A DNA stretch of 43,327 nt from an uncultured Porphyromonadaceae bacterium (lineage in GTDB: Bacteria; Bacteroidota; Bacteroidia; Bacteroidales; Muribaculaceae): positions 1 to 43,327 of the forward strand of contig CAMWIH010000004.1 in assembly GCA_947174305.1 (NCBI GenBank), given 5' to 3'. This document shows, piece by piece, positions 19,904 to 26,551 of this stretch; the stretch's first letter is position 1; each line of letters begins with the position of its first letter. Below the pieces are notes generated by a model. The model was given only the letters and a program-made list of their open reading frames with translations, was not told where the DNA came from and made no database searches. Position numbers and translations under genes: made by a program.

Positions 19904-20716
19904 TTATTCCGATTCCTCTTCAATAGGTTTGGCCCATTTTTTCAATACCAGAATACTCAGTTCATAGAGTGCATAAATAGGGATTGTTACCATCACAAGG
20001 GTGAAGAGGTCGGGCGGTGTTATTATGGCGGCTATGATCATGATTATCACGAATGCGTATGGACGGTATCGTTTAAGCATCATGGCGTCGATGAATCCCA
20101 TCTTTCCTAATATGAACGCGAACACGGGGAGCTGAAACACTATCCCCATCATGAATGCCAGAGTGGTGAAGGTGGATATATATGAGTCGAGCGTAATGGT
20201 ATTGGTGATTTCCTTATCCACTTGATAGGTAGCCAGAAATTGAAAGGAGATGGGGAAGAGGATAAAATAGGTCATAAGCAGACCTATGATGAAGAGCAGA
20301 TAAATTATGCCGGCCACAAGATAGGAATAGCGCTTCTCGCTATCGTAAAGTGCCGGAGAGATGAAGCGGAAGAGCTCTGTCAGGATATAAGGTGAGGCAA
20401 ACAGTGCGCCCAGAATGCAGGAGACAGTGACGTGAGTCATAAACTGGGCCGATAGTTCGGTGCTTATGAGGGGGATGCTGTATTCATCAAATTTGAAGTC
20501 GATGTTCATCCTCCTGAGCATTCCTTCTATCCATTGGAAGGTGCAGAAATCGGAATTATGGGGTGCGAGGAGAATCTTGAAGGTCTCGTTTTTGAAACAG
20601 AATATGATTATGGCGAGGATTATCACCACAAGTAGTATTCTGAAGAGCATCTTGCGTAACACGTCAAGATGCTCTCCAAAAGTTAAAAGGGTGCCATTCT
20701 GTTCCTGCTCACTCAT
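19904..20716 (-). CDS. tatC: Tat translocase subunit TatC
   Basis: Polytopic membrane protein that recognises twin-arginine signal peptides and forms the core of the Tat pore. I place the start at 20716 (MSEQEQNGT), giving 270 residues. That ATG overlaps the tatA stop (ATGAGTGA) and precedes the conserved cytoplasmic motif [15 protein letters not shown], the family's usual (F)xEHLxELR. A longer reading to 20782 would only add residues lying over tatA. Six hydrophobic segments are visible, with the typical [13 protein letters not shown] loop (PxLy/xxE motif). It is the last gene of the CXXX-repeat operon and presumably exports its Tat-signal precursor. Confidence 0.93.
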
Positions 20717-20972
20717 TTCCCATCTCTTTGGAAGTTTCTGATGCCGGGAGGGAACCGGTATTGCTGAGATGGGCGTCGGCACGGCGTTGTATCTCCTCTT
20801 CTACGCGTCGGTTCATCTCCTCCTCCGTTGGCTCGCTCATGCCCTCCTTGAAACTCTTCACACCTTTTCCCATACCCTTCATAAGCTCGGGAAGTTTCTT
20901 ACCTCCGAAGATAAGGAGGATGACAGCGGAGATAAGTATAATCTCCGTTGCCCCAATCATGCATAGTATCAT
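20709..20972 (-). CDS. tatA: Tat translocase subunit TatA
   Basis: 87 residues when started at [11 protein letters not shown] (20972), which overlaps the upstream stop by ATGA. The alternative start at 20999 lies inside the upstream gene. One N-terminal membrane helix (about 3-20), the [12 protein letters not shown] hinge and the amphipathic helix ([12 protein letters not shown]) are typical of TatA, followed by a charged tail. TatA oligomerises to form the conducting part of the Tat system. Coupled translation with its neighbours on both sides ties it to the peptide-modification operon. Confidence 0.93.
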
Positions 20973-21244
20973 TCCGGTGTAACTAAATAGATTGCACAAT
21001 CATTGAAATCAATCTCCCAGTGGCCATCGGGTGCTGACTCCCATTGATATTTGGTGGCCATAGCGTCCCACCAGTTCTGGAACCTGGTTCCTGTTTCTCC
21101 CATATCTTTCACAAGCTTTTCATAAAGCTCTGTGTTATCAACGGTTAGAATCTTAGCCAATTCGTTGAGGCCATTTCTGCGCTCAAACAAAGTCTGTATC
21201 TCATCGCGTTCAGCTTCTGTGACGCGTCCAATCTCTTTTTTCAT
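20969..21244 (-). CDS. CXXX-repeat peptide modification system protein
   Basis: 91 residues, cytoplasmic and mostly helical, with no signal peptide ([19 protein letters not shown]; then [14 protein letters not shown] and a [10 protein letters not shown] ending). Its size, motif content and position match the small protein that accompanies CXXX-repeat radical SAM cassettes in Bacteroides, named in TIGRFAM style 'CXXX repeat peptide modification system protein' (from memory). Its role is unknown; it may bind the precursor or the maturases. It lies 6 bases after the secreted 136-residue gene and overlaps tatA by 4 bases. Confidence 0.7.
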
Positions 21245-21250
21245 CTGTCG

Positions 21251-21661
21251 TTATCGTTTATGGAATTCAGCATAGCAATTCCGATTGTTTATTGGTACTA
21301 ATCGAACAACCGTGTTAGAATTGTTTATAAGCAAAGATTGTGATCCCCAGGTAAATACATACCAGCCATTATTAGTGCCGGAATAACTGTAATTATTATC
21401 TCCTGCCATTGGAAGAGCGTACACGTTTGTTGCACCCCAAGGGGTAACTGTTGTGCCGGTTACAATAAGTTTAGACATCATCCCTGGTACCTCAAATAGA
21501 GTTATTTTTAACGAGGTGGTTCCTAAACTTGTTACATTACGATTAATCCGACTCCCATTTTCGTAGGAACAAACATAATCAAAGTTCCCACCTATTTGTT
21601 GAGCACCAACCGGAGTTAGGGTAGAAATAAGTAAAGCTATAATAAGAAGTATCTTTTTCAT
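21251..21661 (-). CDS. Small secreted protein of the CXXX operon
   Basis: 136 residues with a clear Sec signal peptide (MKKILLIIALLISTLTPVGA, cleavage near AQQ). The mature part of about 115 residues is beta-rich, with two Cys (in DYVCSYEN and NRNCYAEF) that could form a disulfide. I recognise no family. It overlaps the SPASM-type maturase gene by 4 bases (ATGA) and precedes the modification-system gene by 6, so it belongs to the operon. A periplasmic or surface partner for the exported peptide is a reasonable guess. Confidence 0.65.
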   Translation of the reverse strand: MKKILLIIALLISTLTPVGAQQIGGNFDYVCSYENGSRINRNVTSLGTTSLKITLFEVPGMMSKLIVTGTTVTPWGATNVYALPMAGDNNYSYSGTNNGWYVFTWGSQSLLINNSNTVVRLVPINNRNCYAEFHKR

Positions 21662-22584
21662 TTGTTTATAATTTTTTCAAAAGGATCAAGATAAGATATT
21701 TCATCAATGTTCATTGCATTAATATCTACTTCCTCTTTGTTTAATTCTTGTATGATTTTCCTTGCAGCCTCTCTTTCGAGATGAGCCATGACGCATTGTT
21801 CGTGACCGGGAGTGTTGACTTCGAGAGTGTATTTCTTGTTGAGCCAAACGCAACGACGACATTGCCATGCGTCGCAATTCCGGCAGATAGGGGCATGGTC
21901 GAGACGGAACAGTTGAGGATTCTTCACATCCGGTCCTTGTTCAATCGATCCAACAGGTTTCTCACCGGTGTAATAGAAAGCGGGACAGATATATAGATTC
22001 CCGTCGGGAGCCAAAGTCAGTGACTCCCATCCGGCATTGCAATTATTCATCTCCGTCAAAACCATACGGTCGGTAATGATATTGACCTGAAGATCATGGC
22101 CTGATTTCATTTCCTCCAACACTTTATCAGACAGTATGGAAAGGGAATTACGATAAGTCTCTATATCCGAATCATAAAAATTCTCAGGATCGGTTATCAC
22201 CACATTTACACGGGCTGCTTTCTCCAAAAGAGGGGATAGGGTTTCAGGCTTTTCAAGAATATCAGATAAAGAAATCCTTGCAACTACTGTCGCTGCTTCC
22301 GGACATAGACCATAATCCCTAGGCTCAGATACGATAACATCCGCGTCCGTTGTTAATGACACAGGAACAATATTCACATGGTCGATAGAGGAGATTATCT
22401 CCTTGTAGTCTTCCGGCAATTCATAGTCAGGCCAAACGAACTGGACATTCAGATTCTCTATCATGGCGAATCTGACCCCCTTTTTGAGATCCTCCTTTGA
22501 AATGAGTTTTCGTTCTCTTTTGCTGTCATAGTGACAGAAAGAGACGGAGGAGTCATCGAGAAGTATTATCAGGTATTTCAGCAT
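21658..22584 (-). CDS. CXXX-repeat peptide maturase, SPASM domain without radical SAM core
   Basis: 308 residues. The N-terminal 170 residues have no CxxxCxxC cluster motif, so it is not itself a radical SAM enzyme. The C-terminal part has seven Cys in a SPASM arrangement: Cys182 and Cys200 (C-x12-G-x4-C), then Cys234, Cys237, Cys242, Cys245 and Cys264. Such domains hold auxiliary Fe-S clusters. Relatives are named 'CXXX repeat peptide maturase' in Bacteroides cassettes (recalled). It probably works with the radical SAM protein whose gene overlaps its start by 7 bases. The N-terminal part looks like a degenerate TIM-barrel or receiver-like alpha/beta fold. Confidence 0.75.
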   Translation of the reverse strand: MLKYLIILLDDSSVSFCHYDSKRERKLISKEDLKKGVRFAMIENLNVQFVWPDYELPEDYKEIISSIDHVNIVPVSLTTDADVIVSEPRDYGLCPEAATVVARISLSDILEKPETLSPLLEKAARVNVVITDPENFYDSDIETYRNSLSILSDKVLEEMKSGHDLQVNIITDRMVLTEMNNCNAGWESLTLAPDGNLYICPAFYYTGEKPVGSIEQGPDVKNPQLFRLDHAPICRNCDAWQCRRCVWLNKKYTLEVNTPGHEQCVMAHLEREAARKIIQELNKEEVDINAMNIDEISYLDPFEKIINK

Positions 22585-23852
22585 ATCGGACTTTGGTGTT
22601 TAGGACGGTTCAATTCAAATTCCTCACGTTTCCCTTCGAGTTCAAGTTTGCGGAAAAGTTTGTTCCAATAGTAGTTATTGGCTCTTACACGCGCCTTGTG
22701 CATCTTGCAGATGGCGGTTGAACGTTGATAAATGGTATCCGTTTCGGCAGCATCATAGTTCTCTCCTTGGCACCATGCGCAGCCCGAGGCTATCTCGCAG
22801 TCGATACATTTCTGTGGAGACTGAGTTGTCCGGTCGAGGGTAAGGAATGGACGCAGTTTATTCTGGTCAATTCCATCTCTGACATTCCCAATTATTATCG
22901 GTTTCTTTTCTCGAAGAGAATATGCAGCGAAACGAGTGCATGGGTAGAAATTGCCGGCCGCGTCAATTGAAAGCATTTTCCCGGCACCGCACCAGTTGTG
23001 GTTATCTTCAACCGGATCAAGAGGTTTGCCAATATCTTCCTTAAAGAAAGAGCAGGCATTATCTATGTATAAATTATCATCGATAATGGTGTCTGCAAGT
23101 TTCATGAGTTGTTCTTCAAAGCGTATATCATCACTGGGATACCATACATTCTCAAATACAACATTAATATTGACTTCGTGGATTCCTAAGGAGAATAAAT
23201 GGATTACTGATTCATAGATATATGGGATATCAGCAGTGCTGATTGTAACTTTTGTACTTGCGCCGGGGAATTGTTTCAACCACAGAGGAATGTTTTTTAC
23301 TACGTCAACATAACTTCCTCTTTCTTCCTCTCCTTTCCATATTCGGTTTAGATCATGCTTTCTTTTTGTTCCGTCAATTGTGATTCCTATTGAAAGATGA
23401 TGGTAATATTTATTAATATAATTCTGCACTTTAGGGGAATCGTAATTTATTCCATTAGTGGAGAAGCTGAACATGTGGTTGGTGAACCAGGGATGATTCA
23501 ACCTATAAAGCTCAGCTGTGATATAATCACATATCTTTTCAATAAGATTAATTTCAAGGAATGGTTCGCCTCCTATAAAGTCCCATATAACAGCTGGTTG
23601 ATGAAATAGAGTGCGATTGCTAAGTATATAATCAATAGCTTTTTTTGCTGTCTCAAACGACATACGCTCTTTTTCATTCTTTCCTACCAGATAGCAATAT
23701 TTACAAGCAAGCTGACAATCCTTGGTAACAATGAACGTAATATTTTTTGCTGCACCTGACTGCCAATCTTTTGTTAGCATGGCAGTCAGGTCGGAAGCTT
23801 TATTTTCCATAAGGGAAATGAGATATTTAAAGGAATGATACAATCTTTCCAA
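22578..23852 (-). CDS. Radical SAM peptide maturase, CXXX-repeat target family
   Basis: 424 residues. Cys46, Cys50 and Cys53 (CQLACKYC) bind the radical SAM 4Fe-4S cluster; GGEP at 94-97 contacts SAM. The C-terminal SPASM domain has all seven Cys: 288, 305, 349, 352, 358, 361 and 382. These enzymes install carbon or thioether crosslinks in ribosomal peptides. It lies 16 bases after the Cys-repeat precursor gene, its obvious substrate. A second start (Met15, MENKASD) is possible, since the first 14 residues are not needed for the fold. The crosslink type cannot be read from the sequence. Confidence 0.88.
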   Translation of the reverse strand: MERLYHSFKYLISLMENKASDLTAMLTKDWQSGAAKNITFIVTKDCQLACKYCYLVGKNEKERMSFETAKKAIDYILSNRTLFHQPAVIWDFIGGEPFLEINLIEKICDYITAELYRLNHPWFTNHMFSFSTNGINYDSPKVQNYINKYYHHLSIGITIDGTKRKHDLNRIWKGEEERGSYVDVVKNIPLWLKQFPGASTKVTISTADIPYIYESVIHLFSLGIHEVNINVVFENVWYPSDDIRFEEQLMKLADTIIDDNLYIDNACSFFKEDIGKPLDPVEDNHNWCGAGKMLSIDAAGNFYPCTRFAAYSLREKKPIIIGNVRDGIDQNKLRPFLTLDRTTQSPQKCIDCEIASGCAWCQGENYDAAETDTIYQRSTAICKMHKARVRANNYYWNKLFRKLELEGKREEFELNRPKHQSPIC

Positions 23853-23868
23853 TCAATAAGTTAAGGAA

Positions 23869-24183
23869 TTAGTAACGATTGCTGCTTGTGTCGCAACCGC
23901 CTGAGCATGATCTGTAGCAACTGCCCTTACATGTCGTATCACAACCAGTGTGGCATGTGTAATAACAGTTAGCGGAATGACATGATGTTTGACAGCCGGC
24001 ACAGATTCTTGAGCAGGCGGCAGTACATCCATCATTACATCCTGTTGAAGGCAGATCAGATGCTTTCCCAAGTAGAGGCATATTTGCAATAGCGATAGCA
24101 CCAAGGATAGGGAGAGCCGATTTTGCAGCTTTCTTGAAGAACTGGCGACGTGACTGAAGCTCTTCGTTTCTCTTATCTTTCAT
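23869..24183 (-). CDS. CXXX-repeat Tat-exported precursor peptide
   Basis: 104 residues. The N-terminus carries a twin-arginine signal: SRRQFFK (11-17), then a hydrophobic stretch (ALPILGAIAIANMPLL, 23-38) and a likely cleavage around GKA. The C-terminal half has 13 Cys at 49, 53, 57, 61, 64, 68, 73, 77, 81, 85, 89, 93 and 97, i.e. every fourth residue except for one 3 and one 5 spacing. Spacers are small or polar (Gly, Ser, Thr, Ala, Asp, His). The family is known as radical SAM targets with CXXX repeats in Bacteroides. The Tat signal implies export after modification. Its ATG overlaps the stop of a possible upstream 70-codon ORF. Confidence 0.88.
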   Translation of the reverse strand: MKDKRNEELQSRRQFFKKAAKSALPILGAIAIANMPLLGKASDLPSTGCNDGCTAACSRICAGCQTSCHSANCYYTCHTGCDTTCKGSCYRSCSGGCDTSSNRY

Positions 24184-24392
24184 GATGAATTTATGATGTC
24201 CTCCCGACTCTCCTGTGAGAACTTTATGTATATAAAACGAAAAACGTGAGGGTCTGTACCTGTTGCTCGTTCCGCTTTTAGAGGCTCTCGCATTGCCTTA
24301 CTCCGTAGAACGAGCAACGCAGAGGCCTCACGCAAATATGTAAATATGCGTTTAAAAGCATATACCTTCTCACGAAGGCTATGCCATAGCAT
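24180..24392 (-). CDS. Doubtful leader ORF upstream of the precursor
   Basis: A 70-codon ORF whose TGA overlaps the precursor ATG (ATGA). It spans the inverted repeat at 24245-24332 and has a basic, unstructured-looking product (LLVLRSKAMREPLKAERATG). I vaguely recall similar strings as small hypothetical ORFs scattered in other Bacteroidales, which would make it part of a dispersed repeat rather than a gene. The stop-start overlap would still allow translational coupling. Confidence 0.2.
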   Translation of the reverse strand: MLWHSLREKVYAFKRIFTYLREASALLVLRSKAMREPLKAERATGTDPHVFRFIYIKFSQESREDIINSS

Positions 24393-24548
24393 CTACTTAC
24401 ATATCCACAAGGCGTCTAACGTTGCTAATTCTTGACGGAGTTATGAATTTGCGAGATTCCTAAAAGCCAAGAAAGAGTTTCGATATACGCTTTCTAATAA
24501 AATTATCATACCCACCCCTAAGCCCATATCGGGCCTCTGAATACGATA
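24184..24548 (-). promoter_or_regulatory. Long structured 5' leader of the CXXX operon
   Basis: About 365 bases between the predicted transcription start and the precursor ATG. An extended inverted repeat covers 24245-24332. Its inner stem is 11 bp perfect (24262-24272 with 24308-24318), with outer arms CGTGAGG/CCTCACG (24245-24251 with 24326-24332) and TCTG/CAGA between. The leader looks too long and too structured for a plain 5' end, but I do not recognise a known riboswitch. Confidence 0.5.
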
Positions 24549-24658: not shown

Positions 24659-25549
24659 ATGGATGATAACAGCTATATTAGGTTTGACTGGTTCATGAAG
24701 CACATGCTTCGTGACAAATCGAATTTTGAGATACTCGAAGGCCTCATCACTGTTCTTCTCGGTGAGGAGGTCAAGATTGTCGAGATACTTGAGAGCGAGG
24801 GGAACCAGGAGTCTGACGATGATAAGTTCAACCGTGTCGATATAAAGGCGAAGAACAGCAAGGGGCATATCATAATTGTGGAGGTGCAACTTACGCGTCA
24901 GCTTTATTATCTGCAACGCATCCTTTATGGCACTTGCAAGGCCATTACTGAACATATCAATATAGGGGATAAATATGATCAGGTCAAGAAAGTCTATTCG
25001 ATAAGCCTTCTGTATTGTGAATACGGGCAGGGAGACGATTACGTGTATCATGGCGAGACCCGGTTCAAGGGGATTCACACCGGCACCGATCTGTTGGTCA
25101 ATACCAAAGAGGAAGGCGTGATTGTGCCTCATCTTCCCAAAGAAGTTTTTCCGGAATATTATCTGGTCAGGGTTAACTCCTACGACAAGATACCTGATTC
25201 ACCTCTTGATGAATGGATGACCTATCTGAAGACCGGCAAGGTAAAGGAGAACACCCGTGTTCCGGGTCTCCGGCAGGTTAAAGAGAAACTCCGTTTGATG
25301 TCGATGAGTGTAGAGGAACGTCGTGCATACGACCGCCACATGGACAACATCATGGTTCAGAATGATGTTCTCGACACCGCCCGCGAGGAAGGTCGCGAGG
25401 AAGGTCGCGAGGAAGGCTTGGCGGAGGGTCTTGCTCAAGGAACATTAAATGTTGCCAAGAACATGATAAGTATGAATCTACCTGATGAAATAATTGCGCA
25501 GGCTACAGGTTTAAGTGTCGAAGAGATTCAGGAAATAAGAAAGAATTAA
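24659..25549 (+). CDS. Rpn/PDDEXK_2-family nuclease, first tandem copy
   Basis: 296 residues of the Rpn (recombination-promoting nuclease) / PD-(D/E)XK 'putative transposase' family (PF12784-like). The active site region is RVDIKAK followed by IIIVEVQ, in which the family's EVQ replaces ExK. The C-terminus has a short run of EGREEG repeats (about 244-262) and ends in the typical helix pair DEIIAQATGLSVEEI. Rpn proteins cut DNA and, in E. coli, are linked to defence and recombination. The gene has its own promoter and is followed 18 bases later by a near-identical copy. The two share a 509-bp block without a single difference. Confidence 0.85.
   Translation: MDDNSYIRFDWFMKHMLRDKSNFEILEGLITVLLGEEVKIVEILESEGNQESDDDKFNRVDIKAKNSKGHIIIVEVQLTRQLYYLQRILYGTCKAITEHINIGDKYDQVKKVYSISLLYCEYGQGDDYVYHGETRFKGIHTGTDLLVNTKEEGVIVPHLPKEVFPEYYLVRVNSYDKIPDSPLDEWMTYLKTGKVKENTRVPGLRQVKEKLRLMSMSVEERRAYDRHMDNIMVQNDVLDTAREEGREEGREEGLAEGLAQGTLNVAKNMISMNLPDEIIAQATGLSVEEIQEIRKN
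24860..25368 (+). repeat. Identical 509-bp block, copy A
   Basis: Identical by eye to 25769-26277 (offset 909) across the central part of both Rpn genes. Sequence on both sides differs at many silent sites. Confidence 0.9.
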
Positions 25550-25567: not shown

Positions 25568-26551
25568 ATGGATGACAACAGCTATATACGATTTGATTGG
25601 TTCATGAAGCACATGCTTCGTGATAAGTCTAATTTTGAAATTCTTGAAGGTTTCATCTCCGTTCTGCTCGGAGAGGATGTGAAGATTGAGGAGATCCTCG
25701 AAAGCGAAGGGAATCAGGAATCGGATGATGATAAGTTTAACCGTGTTGACATAAAGGCAAAGAACAGTAAGGGGCATATCATAATTGTGGAGGTGCAACT
25801 TACGCGTCAGCTTTATTATCTGCAACGCATCCTTTATGGCACTTGCAAGGCCATTACTGAACATATCAATATAGGGGATAAATATGATCAGGTCAAGAAA
25901 GTCTATTCGATAAGCCTTCTGTATTGTGAATACGGGCAGGGAGACGATTACGTGTATCATGGCGAGACCCGGTTCAAGGGGATTCACACCGGCACCGATC
26001 TGTTGGTCAATACCAAAGAGGAAGGCGTGATTGTGCCTCATCTTCCCAAAGAAGTTTTTCCGGAATATTATCTGGTCAGGGTTAACTCCTACGACAAGAT
26101 ACCTGATTCACCTCTTGATGAATGGATGACCTATCTGAAGACCGGCAAGGTAAAGGAGAACACCCGTGTTCCGGGTCTCCGGCAGGTTAAAGAGAAACTC
26201 CGTTTGATGTCGATGAGTGTAGAGGAACGTCGTGCATACGACCGCCACATGGACAACATCATGGTTCAGAATGATGTGCTCGACACGGCGCGCGAAGAGG
26301 GTAGAGAGGAAGGCTTGGCAGAAGGTCGTACGCAAGGGTTAGCAGAAGGCCGTACGCAAGGATTAGCAGAAGGCCGTGCGGAAGGCTTAGCAGAAGGCCG
26401 TGCAGAAGGTCGTGCGGAAGGTCGTGCAGAAGGTTTGGCAGAGGCCAAATTAAAGATGGCTGAAAATATGATTAAGCTGAGGCTCTCTGATGAAATTATA
26501 GCGCAGGCCACCGGTCTTAACATTGAAGAGATTCGACGCCTGAAAAAGTAG
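25568..26551 (+). CDS. Rpn/PDDEXK_2-family nuclease, second tandem copy
   Basis: 327 residues, paralogue of the preceding gene. The first 67 residues differ at only five positions but many silent changes are present. The central portion is identical at the DNA level. The C-terminal region has an expanded EG repeat (about residues 240-297: EGRTQGLAEG, EGRAEG and variants), then the same closing motif (LSDEIIAQATGLNIEEI). Active site as in copy one. The repeat expansion would lengthen a coiled or flexible tail. The two genes form one transcript. No transposon ends were seen. Confidence 0.85.
   Translation: MDDNSYIRFDWFMKHMLRDKSNFEILEGFISVLLGEDVKIEEILESEGNQESDDDKFNRVDIKAKNSKGHIIIVEVQLTRQLYYLQRILYGTCKAITEHINIGDKYDQVKKVYSISLLYCEYGQGDDYVYHGETRFKGIHTGTDLLVNTKEEGVIVPHLPKEVFPEYYLVRVNSYDKIPDSPLDEWMTYLKTGKVKENTRVPGLRQVKEKLRLMSMSVEERRAYDRHMDNIMVQNDVLDTAREEGREEGLAEGRTQGLAEGRTQGLAEGRAEGLAEGRAEGRAEGRAEGLAEAKLKMAENMIKLRLSDEIIAQATGLNIEEIRRLKK
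25769..26277 (+). repeat. Identical 509-bp block, copy B
   Basis: Partner of 24860-25368. The perfect match inside otherwise diverged genes points to recent gene conversion. Confidence 0.9.
26311..26452 (+). repeat. Short coding tandem repeats (EG-rich) in the second Rpn gene
   Basis: Runs of 12-24-base units encoding EGRxxGLA/EGRA. Near-identical units such as GCAGAAGGCCGTACGCAAGG recur, so length variation by slippage is likely. Confidence 0.7.

Follow-up and report, generated by a model that had tools for sequence, protein, structure and literature searches.

Why should an operon predicted to make a cysteine-repeat peptide carry a protein translocase of its own? The question is raised by a 43,327-nucleotide stretch of DNA (the window) from an uncultured Porphyromonadaceae bacterium, placed by GTDB in the Muribaculaceae (assembly GCA_947174305.1, contig CAMWIH010000004.1, positions 1 to 43,327). 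Seven open reading frames (ORFs), all on the minus strand from 24183 to 19904, encode a precursor with C-x-x-x repeats, its putative maturation proteins, and the TatA and TatC subunits of a twin-arginine translocation (Tat) system. The operon is best classed as a Tat-exporting variant of the CXXX radical S-adenosylmethionine (SAM) system. With a probability of about 0.62, it makes a Cys-repeat protein akin to the ribosomally synthesized and post-translationally modified peptides (RiPPs), which is modified in the cytoplasm and exported in the folded state by its own TatAC pair.

The precursor gene (23869..24183) encodes 104 residues with 13 Cys, spaced by a gap of exactly 4 in 10 of 12 cases. 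Its leader, EELQSRRQFFKKAAKSALPILG, has SRRQFFK at residues 11-17, and reading by eye makes cleavage by signal peptidase I after Ala41 plausible. After a gap of 58 nt comes the radical SAM/SPASM maturase (22578..23810), which reaches 609 bits with TIGR04115 (cut-off 350). Its ORF (22578-23852) begins with TTG, the ATG at 23810 being favored by alignment with relatives, and the CX3CX2C motif corresponds to C46, C50, and C53 of the TTG-started ORF. Then follow the pseudo-radical-SAM partner (21658..22584; TIGR04119, 234.8 bits, cut-off 150), a small secreted accessory protein (21251..21661) with a Sec-type signal recognized by eye, the TIGR04116 CXXX modification-system protein (20969..21244; 98 bits, cut-off 50), TatA (20709..20972; TIGR01411, 65.8 bits, cut-off 53.9; PF02416), and TatC (19904..20716; TIGR00945, 156.8 bits, cut-off 132.7). 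Reading of the DNA and comparison with relatives give ATG 20972 (stop 20709) and ATG 20716 (stop 19904) as the likely starts of TatA and TatC. With these starts and that of the maturase, the genes downstream of the precursor either share 4-8 nt with their neighbors or are separated from them by 6 nt. The preliminary description of this DNA had proposed seven genes that overlap or nearly touch: a Tat-signal precursor with 13 Cys, a radical SAM-SPASM enzyme, a SPASM-only partner, a small secreted protein, a small modification protein, TatA, and TatC. This layout holds except for the partner, in which a degenerate radical SAM barrel precedes the SPASM part, making it a full-length pseudo-radical-SAM protein. 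The assignment to CXXX families is borne out in NCBIfam for maturase, partner, and accessory protein; the target nearly passes, its 48.2 bits with TIGR04117 falling below the cut-off of 50. There is no TatB among the seven genes, and no member of the MNIO family was found among the seven proteins with NCBIfam and Pfam.

This arrangement recurs in relatives. A first set of 42 cassettes comprises the window and 41 relatives, with up to 20 kb around each. A scan of named genomes covered the best 80 of 396 relatives, nearly all of them Bacteroidota assemblies and many from rumen or gut, with three labeled Firmicutes, apparently in error. The two sets overlap, since 17 of the 80 have a radical SAM tail in common with the first. 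The strict one-strand order of radical SAM, pseudo-radical SAM, TIGR04116, TatA, and TatC is found in 36/42 cassettes, all 36 of which have a twin-arginine precursor, and TatA and TatC are both present in 65/80 named loci. When at least 3 kb of downstream sequence is available (66 named loci), the pseudo-radical SAM and TIGR04116 genes are present in 66/66, and the TatA-TatC pair in 56/66. The preliminary description had held that tat genes lying consistently elsewhere in homologues would speak against a Tat belonging to the operon; their downstream placement points the other way, and the claim is strengthened by a separate TatC clade and by duplicate-TatC counts. The cultured strain Leyella stercorea DSM 18206 (L154) has the precursor, the maturases, TatA, and TatC. 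G562, a genome from the same genus as the window, has two separate CXXX cassettes (L070 and L071), each with TatA and TatC, and a third TatC elsewhere. For the small secreted protein, neither NCBIfam nor Pfam gave a family above cut-off; it has relatives in 6/42 cassettes, the window counted, five of the six having served to build its profile. In L055, L075, and L077, the same slot between the pseudo-radical SAM and TIGR04116 genes is occupied by small proteins, secreted- or lipoprotein-like, whose CxxCxGxG repeats recall DnaJ zinc fingers by eye.

Is this Tat a dedicated one, or an ordinary housekeeping Tat that happens to adjoin a CXXX cassette? TIGR04115 is found in 12/393 genomes of the order, 30/198 of the family, and 9/375 of the phylum; six of the latter are over the cut-off, and the matches below it (G647, G905, and G756) were left out. 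Most genomes of the order sample have TatC (327/393), and few have the cassette. Within the family, TatC is present in 30/30 cassette genomes versus 140/168 others (Fisher 0.007), and at least two TatC matches are present in 18/30 versus 6/168 (Fisher 5e-13), as they are in 5/12 versus 15/381 genomes of the order (Fisher 1e-4), none of these counts and tests correcting for shared ancestry among the genomes. In 9/30 family cassette genomes, no TatC besides that of the cassette was found, and in three TatC is found only elsewhere. In the window's genus the cassette TatC is the sole one in four of five cassette genomes, three of them listed as 99% complete, and no TatC was found in 7 of the 11 cassette-less members. 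Two genomes counted as cassette-less (G455 and G462) carry a TatC of the cassette type close to the beginning of a contig, G455 also having adjacent partner and TIGR04116 matches, so the radical SAM gene may merely be missing from these assemblies.

The phylogeny of TatC largely follows the same division. In a midpoint-rooted tree of 64 rows (36 cassette TatCs and 28 from elsewhere), 32 of the 36, including that of the window, form one clade (support 100/95) apart from the TatCs encoded elsewhere. The other TatC type of the window's genus adjoins an Fe-S membrane protein of ~499 aa and a second protein, of ~470 aa, that has a twin arginine at its start (four loci read), and at one such locus Pfam assigns these neighbors to Fer4 and aldo/keto reductase. 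In this case as well, Tat seems to accompany a substrate. The general Tat-signal model TIGR01409 gives no match in 7 cassette-only genomes (out of 9 in the family) or in 7 genus members without TatC, and 1-4 matches in 5 with the other Tat type; since it fails to match the CXXX precursors themselves, it is a weak measure of Tat substrates. The window's TatC is the only one detected in its assembly (2.8 Mb, 225 contigs, 87.9% complete), a few cassette TatCs cluster with the others, and three family genomes with Tat-less cassettes each have one TatC elsewhere, as might be expected of a housekeeping Tat. Such a Tat is already largely refuted and very improbable, given the adjacency kept in most cassettes, the separate TatC clade, the distinct surroundings of the genus's other Tat type, and the lack of a TatC match in most cassette-less members. 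Chance adjacency of the tat genes is ruled out by synteny, TatC clade, and copy number.

The precursors tell what this translocase would carry. Behind the RRQFFK of the window precursor, the best 12-residue hydropathy is 2.12. In a scan limited to one strict twin-arginine motif and one 88%-complete assembly, the window genome gave 31 DNA matches versus 43 in a reversed control, and 15 of the 31 encode RR; among these 15, a strong hydrophobic stretch is found only behind the CXXX precursor, the next best hydropathy being 1.32. With TIGR04117, 8/19 genomes match at E 1e-4, all eight with a cassette and none above the cut-off. A motif search allowing RR or KR recovered 155 distinct precursors in 119/122 loci, 154 of them with RR. 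When Cys spacing was the only criterion, 160 ORFs were found, 150 of which have RRxF/L-h at most 80 aa ahead of the repeat. The ten others consist of two with RR further upstream, those of L053 and L158, and six that by eye seem truncated or frameshifted. Precursor length varies between 66 and 429 aa and the number of Cys reaches 62, the Cys gap is exactly 4 in 88% of cases, and the repeat consensus is C-(S/K/T)-G-(S/G/T); two to six precursors are present in 40/119 loci. A lipobox-like site is found in 36/155, as in LMSCSKDDDDDDD of Leyella stercorea DSM 18206, and in many it is followed by acidic residues, which resemble Bacteroidota surface-lipoprotein signals. In 129 aligned leaders numbered from the first Arg, position +12 is L in 90% and position +13 is P in 98%, a conservation that to our knowledge goes beyond Tat's own requirements. 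In one locus (L081, genome G399) repeats of CANGSYNNGGSGCTS precede the CXXX part of the precursor; this genome gives two more TatC matches, of which one is partial (71% identity).

Cassettes with another exporter provide a natural control. In five distant ones (L053, L279, and L283-L285), an ABC exporter gene lies within the cassette and Tat is absent, so CXXX systems do not always include Tat. L053 is from the Bacteroidales and its cassette also contains a subtilase, L279 lies on plasmid pAPRE01 of Anaerococcus prevotii, and L283-L285 come from another Bacteroidota family. The RR motif is missing from 5/5 candidate precursors of these cassettes. In L283-L285 these are short, with 5 Cys, and they keep a KTLPG comparable to ALPILG in the Tat-type leader. 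Retention of KTLPG without RR suggests that the maturase grips the leader at LP and that RR serves export. ABC-like ORFs also lie ~6-9 kb from the radical SAM gene in four loci with RR precursors (L052, L061, L063, and L075) and were not counted as cassette genes. In L281 and L282, the precursors carry RR and the cassette has no Tat. In L279 the fused CXXX maturase and the ABC exporter gene are immediate neighbors of a class III lanthipeptide cluster, and the plasmid is typed as conjugative.

The maturases resemble enzymes that form thioethers. CteB (5wgg, E 2.3e-29) is the sole solved relative of the radical SAM protein at E 1e-10, and its second-best model is NF047865 (PapB), at 187 bits below the cut-off of 340. 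It has at most 45 residues ahead of the cluster motif, a stretch too short to hold the N-terminal recognition domain that PapB/CteB-type enzymes have. Its partner has no CX3CX2C and a complete complement of SPASM Cys, and seven Cys of the SPASM region are kept in 35/35 aligned rows. The structural model of this partner (pLDDT 90.9) is matched by CteB (5why) across both barrel and SPASM region (TMq 0.70, E 1.3e-11), which rules out a SPASM-only protein. The TIGR04116 model (pLDDT 95.1) consists of a beta strand, a hairpin of two long helices, and two further beta strands; Foldseek gave no convincing match with it, the best being at E 0.58. A PqqD-like RiPP recognition element was rejected for this protein, since PqqD has a winged-helix topology and TIGR04116 does not. 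The radical SAM and pseudo-radical SAM proteins form a single chain in L053 and L279, as do the pseudo-radical SAM and TIGR04116 proteins in L281, with an equally long ORF at the same place in L282. These fusions support a working complex.

To the relatedness of the genomes counted above must be added several observations that weigh against the proposed reading. Six of the 42 cassettes are Tat-less (L050, L051, L053, L060, L063, and L076); one TatC is found elsewhere in each of their genomes, and five of the six keep RR precursors, so a Tat encoded elsewhere seems to suffice there. Four cassette TatCs (G173, G383, G378, and G039, the last on a long branch) group with the 28 others, which means that Tat joined the cassette more than once, or was swapped. 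In Mantel tests on 35 loci (L052 left out), radical SAM and TatC distances are uncorrelated (r 0.12, with 281/2000 permutations as high); those of the partner (0.44) and TIGR04116 (0.39) do correlate with TatC (both 0/2000), and TatA gives 0.55. L158 is a Tat-type cassette whose precursor-like ORF has AKQFFKK replacing RRxFFK, no LP motif is present in the precursors of L053 and L279, and TIGR04116 had no match in L283-L285. Finally, Asp or Glu is present in 18.8% of the CXXX units and Thr in 34.8%. These frequencies leave crosslinks by the PapB rule (Cys to Asp/Glu) unsupported, and the scarcity of Asp and Glu indicates that known crosslink rules do not transfer; the acceptor may be a Ser or Gly carbon.

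A model of export after maturation can nevertheless be proposed. The leader would be dual, with the twin-arginine RRxFFK addressing the protein to Tat, and LP, 12-13 residues after the first Arg, serving to bind the maturase. The TIGR04115 enzyme, in complex with the pseudo-radical SAM TIGR04119 and with TIGR04116, would act in the cytoplasm and put thioether-type bonds on the C-x-x-x repeats, the pseudo-radical SAM providing SPASM clusters or substrate docking. The rigid product would then pass to its own TatAC pair. Precursors of the window type would be cleaved by signal peptidase I, and those of the lipobox type would be lipidated and placed on the outer membrane. The job of the product is most likely that of a periplasmic or surface Cys-rich protein, either structural or handling metals or redox.

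The surroundings of the operon were also considered. Immediately upstream of the precursor, positions 24184-24460 hold a dispersed structured repeat with 10 matches in the genome including itself, the other nine partial and at 72-83% identity, and the minus strand folds at z -3.8 over 24180-24420. This repeat may be an element resembling miniature inverted-repeat transposable elements (MITEs) or a leader RNA; Rfam gave nothing at gathering scores within the window. Beyond it, two tandem and closely similar genes of the PDDEXK_2 transposase family (Pfam) lie on the plus strand at 24659-25549 and 25568-26551, with EGREEG-type repeats near their C-termini. ORFs around the 42 loci were clustered, excluding those antisense to or overlapping cassette genes. 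Among the clusters present in at least 4 of 42 loci, those recognized by eye are a small helix-turn-helix gene (9 loci), outer-membrane-barrel-like proteins (6), ABC transporters (5), ClpB-like (4), and Sel1-like proteins (4). The wider neighborhood was dropped as a functional clue, since these clusters gave no readable function.

What is exported could differ from the proposed product in two ways. With the same biosynthesis and the same Tat export, it might be a diffusible bacteriocin or signaling RiPP: relatives of the radical SAM enzyme make RiPPs, many loci have multiple precursors, and the distant Anaerococcus plasmid cassette has lanthipeptide genes for neighbors. This is rather unlikely, however, for precursors of up to 429 aa and 62 Cys, and lipobox-like sites would anchor a number of the products. 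By eye, the clusters common to at least 4 of 42 loci include no recognizable immunity gene or peptidase, and of the five loci with ABC-transporter-like ORFs, only L053 has one inside the cassette. The other possibility is that the Cys repeats are free thiols that bind metal in the manner of copper-storage proteins or metallothioneins and are loaded before Tat export, the radical SAM enzyme having a minor role. Tat classically serves proteins loaded with a cofactor inside the cell, and Tat-exported Cys-rich copper storage proteins exist. Yet the window precursor has no Pfam match at E 0.1, a pseudo-radical SAM accompanies the radical SAM in every locus with enough sequence, the nearest solved relative is the thioether-forming CteB, and no metal-transport family was recognized by eye in the clusters common to at least four loci. 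Free thiols are thus less probable still than a diffusible peptide, and a crosslinked Cys-repeat protein exported by its own TatAC remains the preferred reading.

How new is such a system? The enzyme families are already named in NCBIfam, and they reportedly originate from an in-silico study by Haft and Basu of about 2011. The names of the CXXX families, compared as listed, mention no Tat, and some distant members have fused maturases and an ABC exporter, unlike the window operon. As with Bacteroidales TatAC translocases, the operon has TatA plus TatC, and no TatB is among its genes, whereas the cassette TatC mostly forms a clade of its own and is tied to one substrate family. PapB and CteB maturases are alike in that PapB gives the second-best model for the radical SAM protein, and CteB both its sole solved relative and the best fold match of its partner. 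PapB joins Cys to Asp/Glu in CX3D (PMC9413430); the rarity of these residues in CXXX units sets the present system apart. The nearest in logic are the Sec-borne bufferins (PMC12452194) and the lipidated DAG-RiPPs (PMC12636315), both MNIO products. In bufferins and other MNIO RiPPs, a signal peptide replaces the leader, Cys motifs are present, some precursors are very long, and ~16% of Buf2 are predicted lipoproteins, but the enzyme superfamily is another one and export is by Sec, not Tat; that paper calls signal peptides in place of RiPP leaders rare, those described being Sec-dependent, and its main text contains neither the word Tat nor twin-arginine (PMC12452194). The DAG-RiPPs are RiPP-lipoprotein hybrids and also occur in Bacteroidota, but their chemistry is that of MNIO enzymes, and the main text names neither radical SAM nor Tat (PMC12636315). 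Literature searches found neither the TIGR model numbers nor "CXXX repeat", a weak negative because subscription journals mostly lay outside their scope, and nothing on a Tat-exported RiPP appeared among the matches listed for Tat- or signal-peptide-borne RiPPs. In the main text of a Bacteroidales RiPP survey, a term search did not find CXXX, Tat, or twin (PMC10352776), and a term search of PMC9062424 also gave no match. As far as the literature searched shows, the dedicated Tat arm is new.

More broadly, and at somewhat less than even odds, these cassettes define a RiPP class in which a Tat signal serves as leader and a substrate-specific TatAC is encoded in the same cluster, with crosslinked, folded products that are partly surface lipoproteins, and with some relatives keeping Tat for this product only. 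The presence of the cassette in cultured Leyella stercorea DSM 18206 makes the system directly testable. If the proposal is true, it would assign a product to enzyme families that have names but, in the literature searched, no characterization. It would also offer a simple system for probing how Tat handles a crosslinked substrate. Finally, the existence of a RiPP carried by Tat through a dedicated translocase would mean that maturation and folding can be finished before export.

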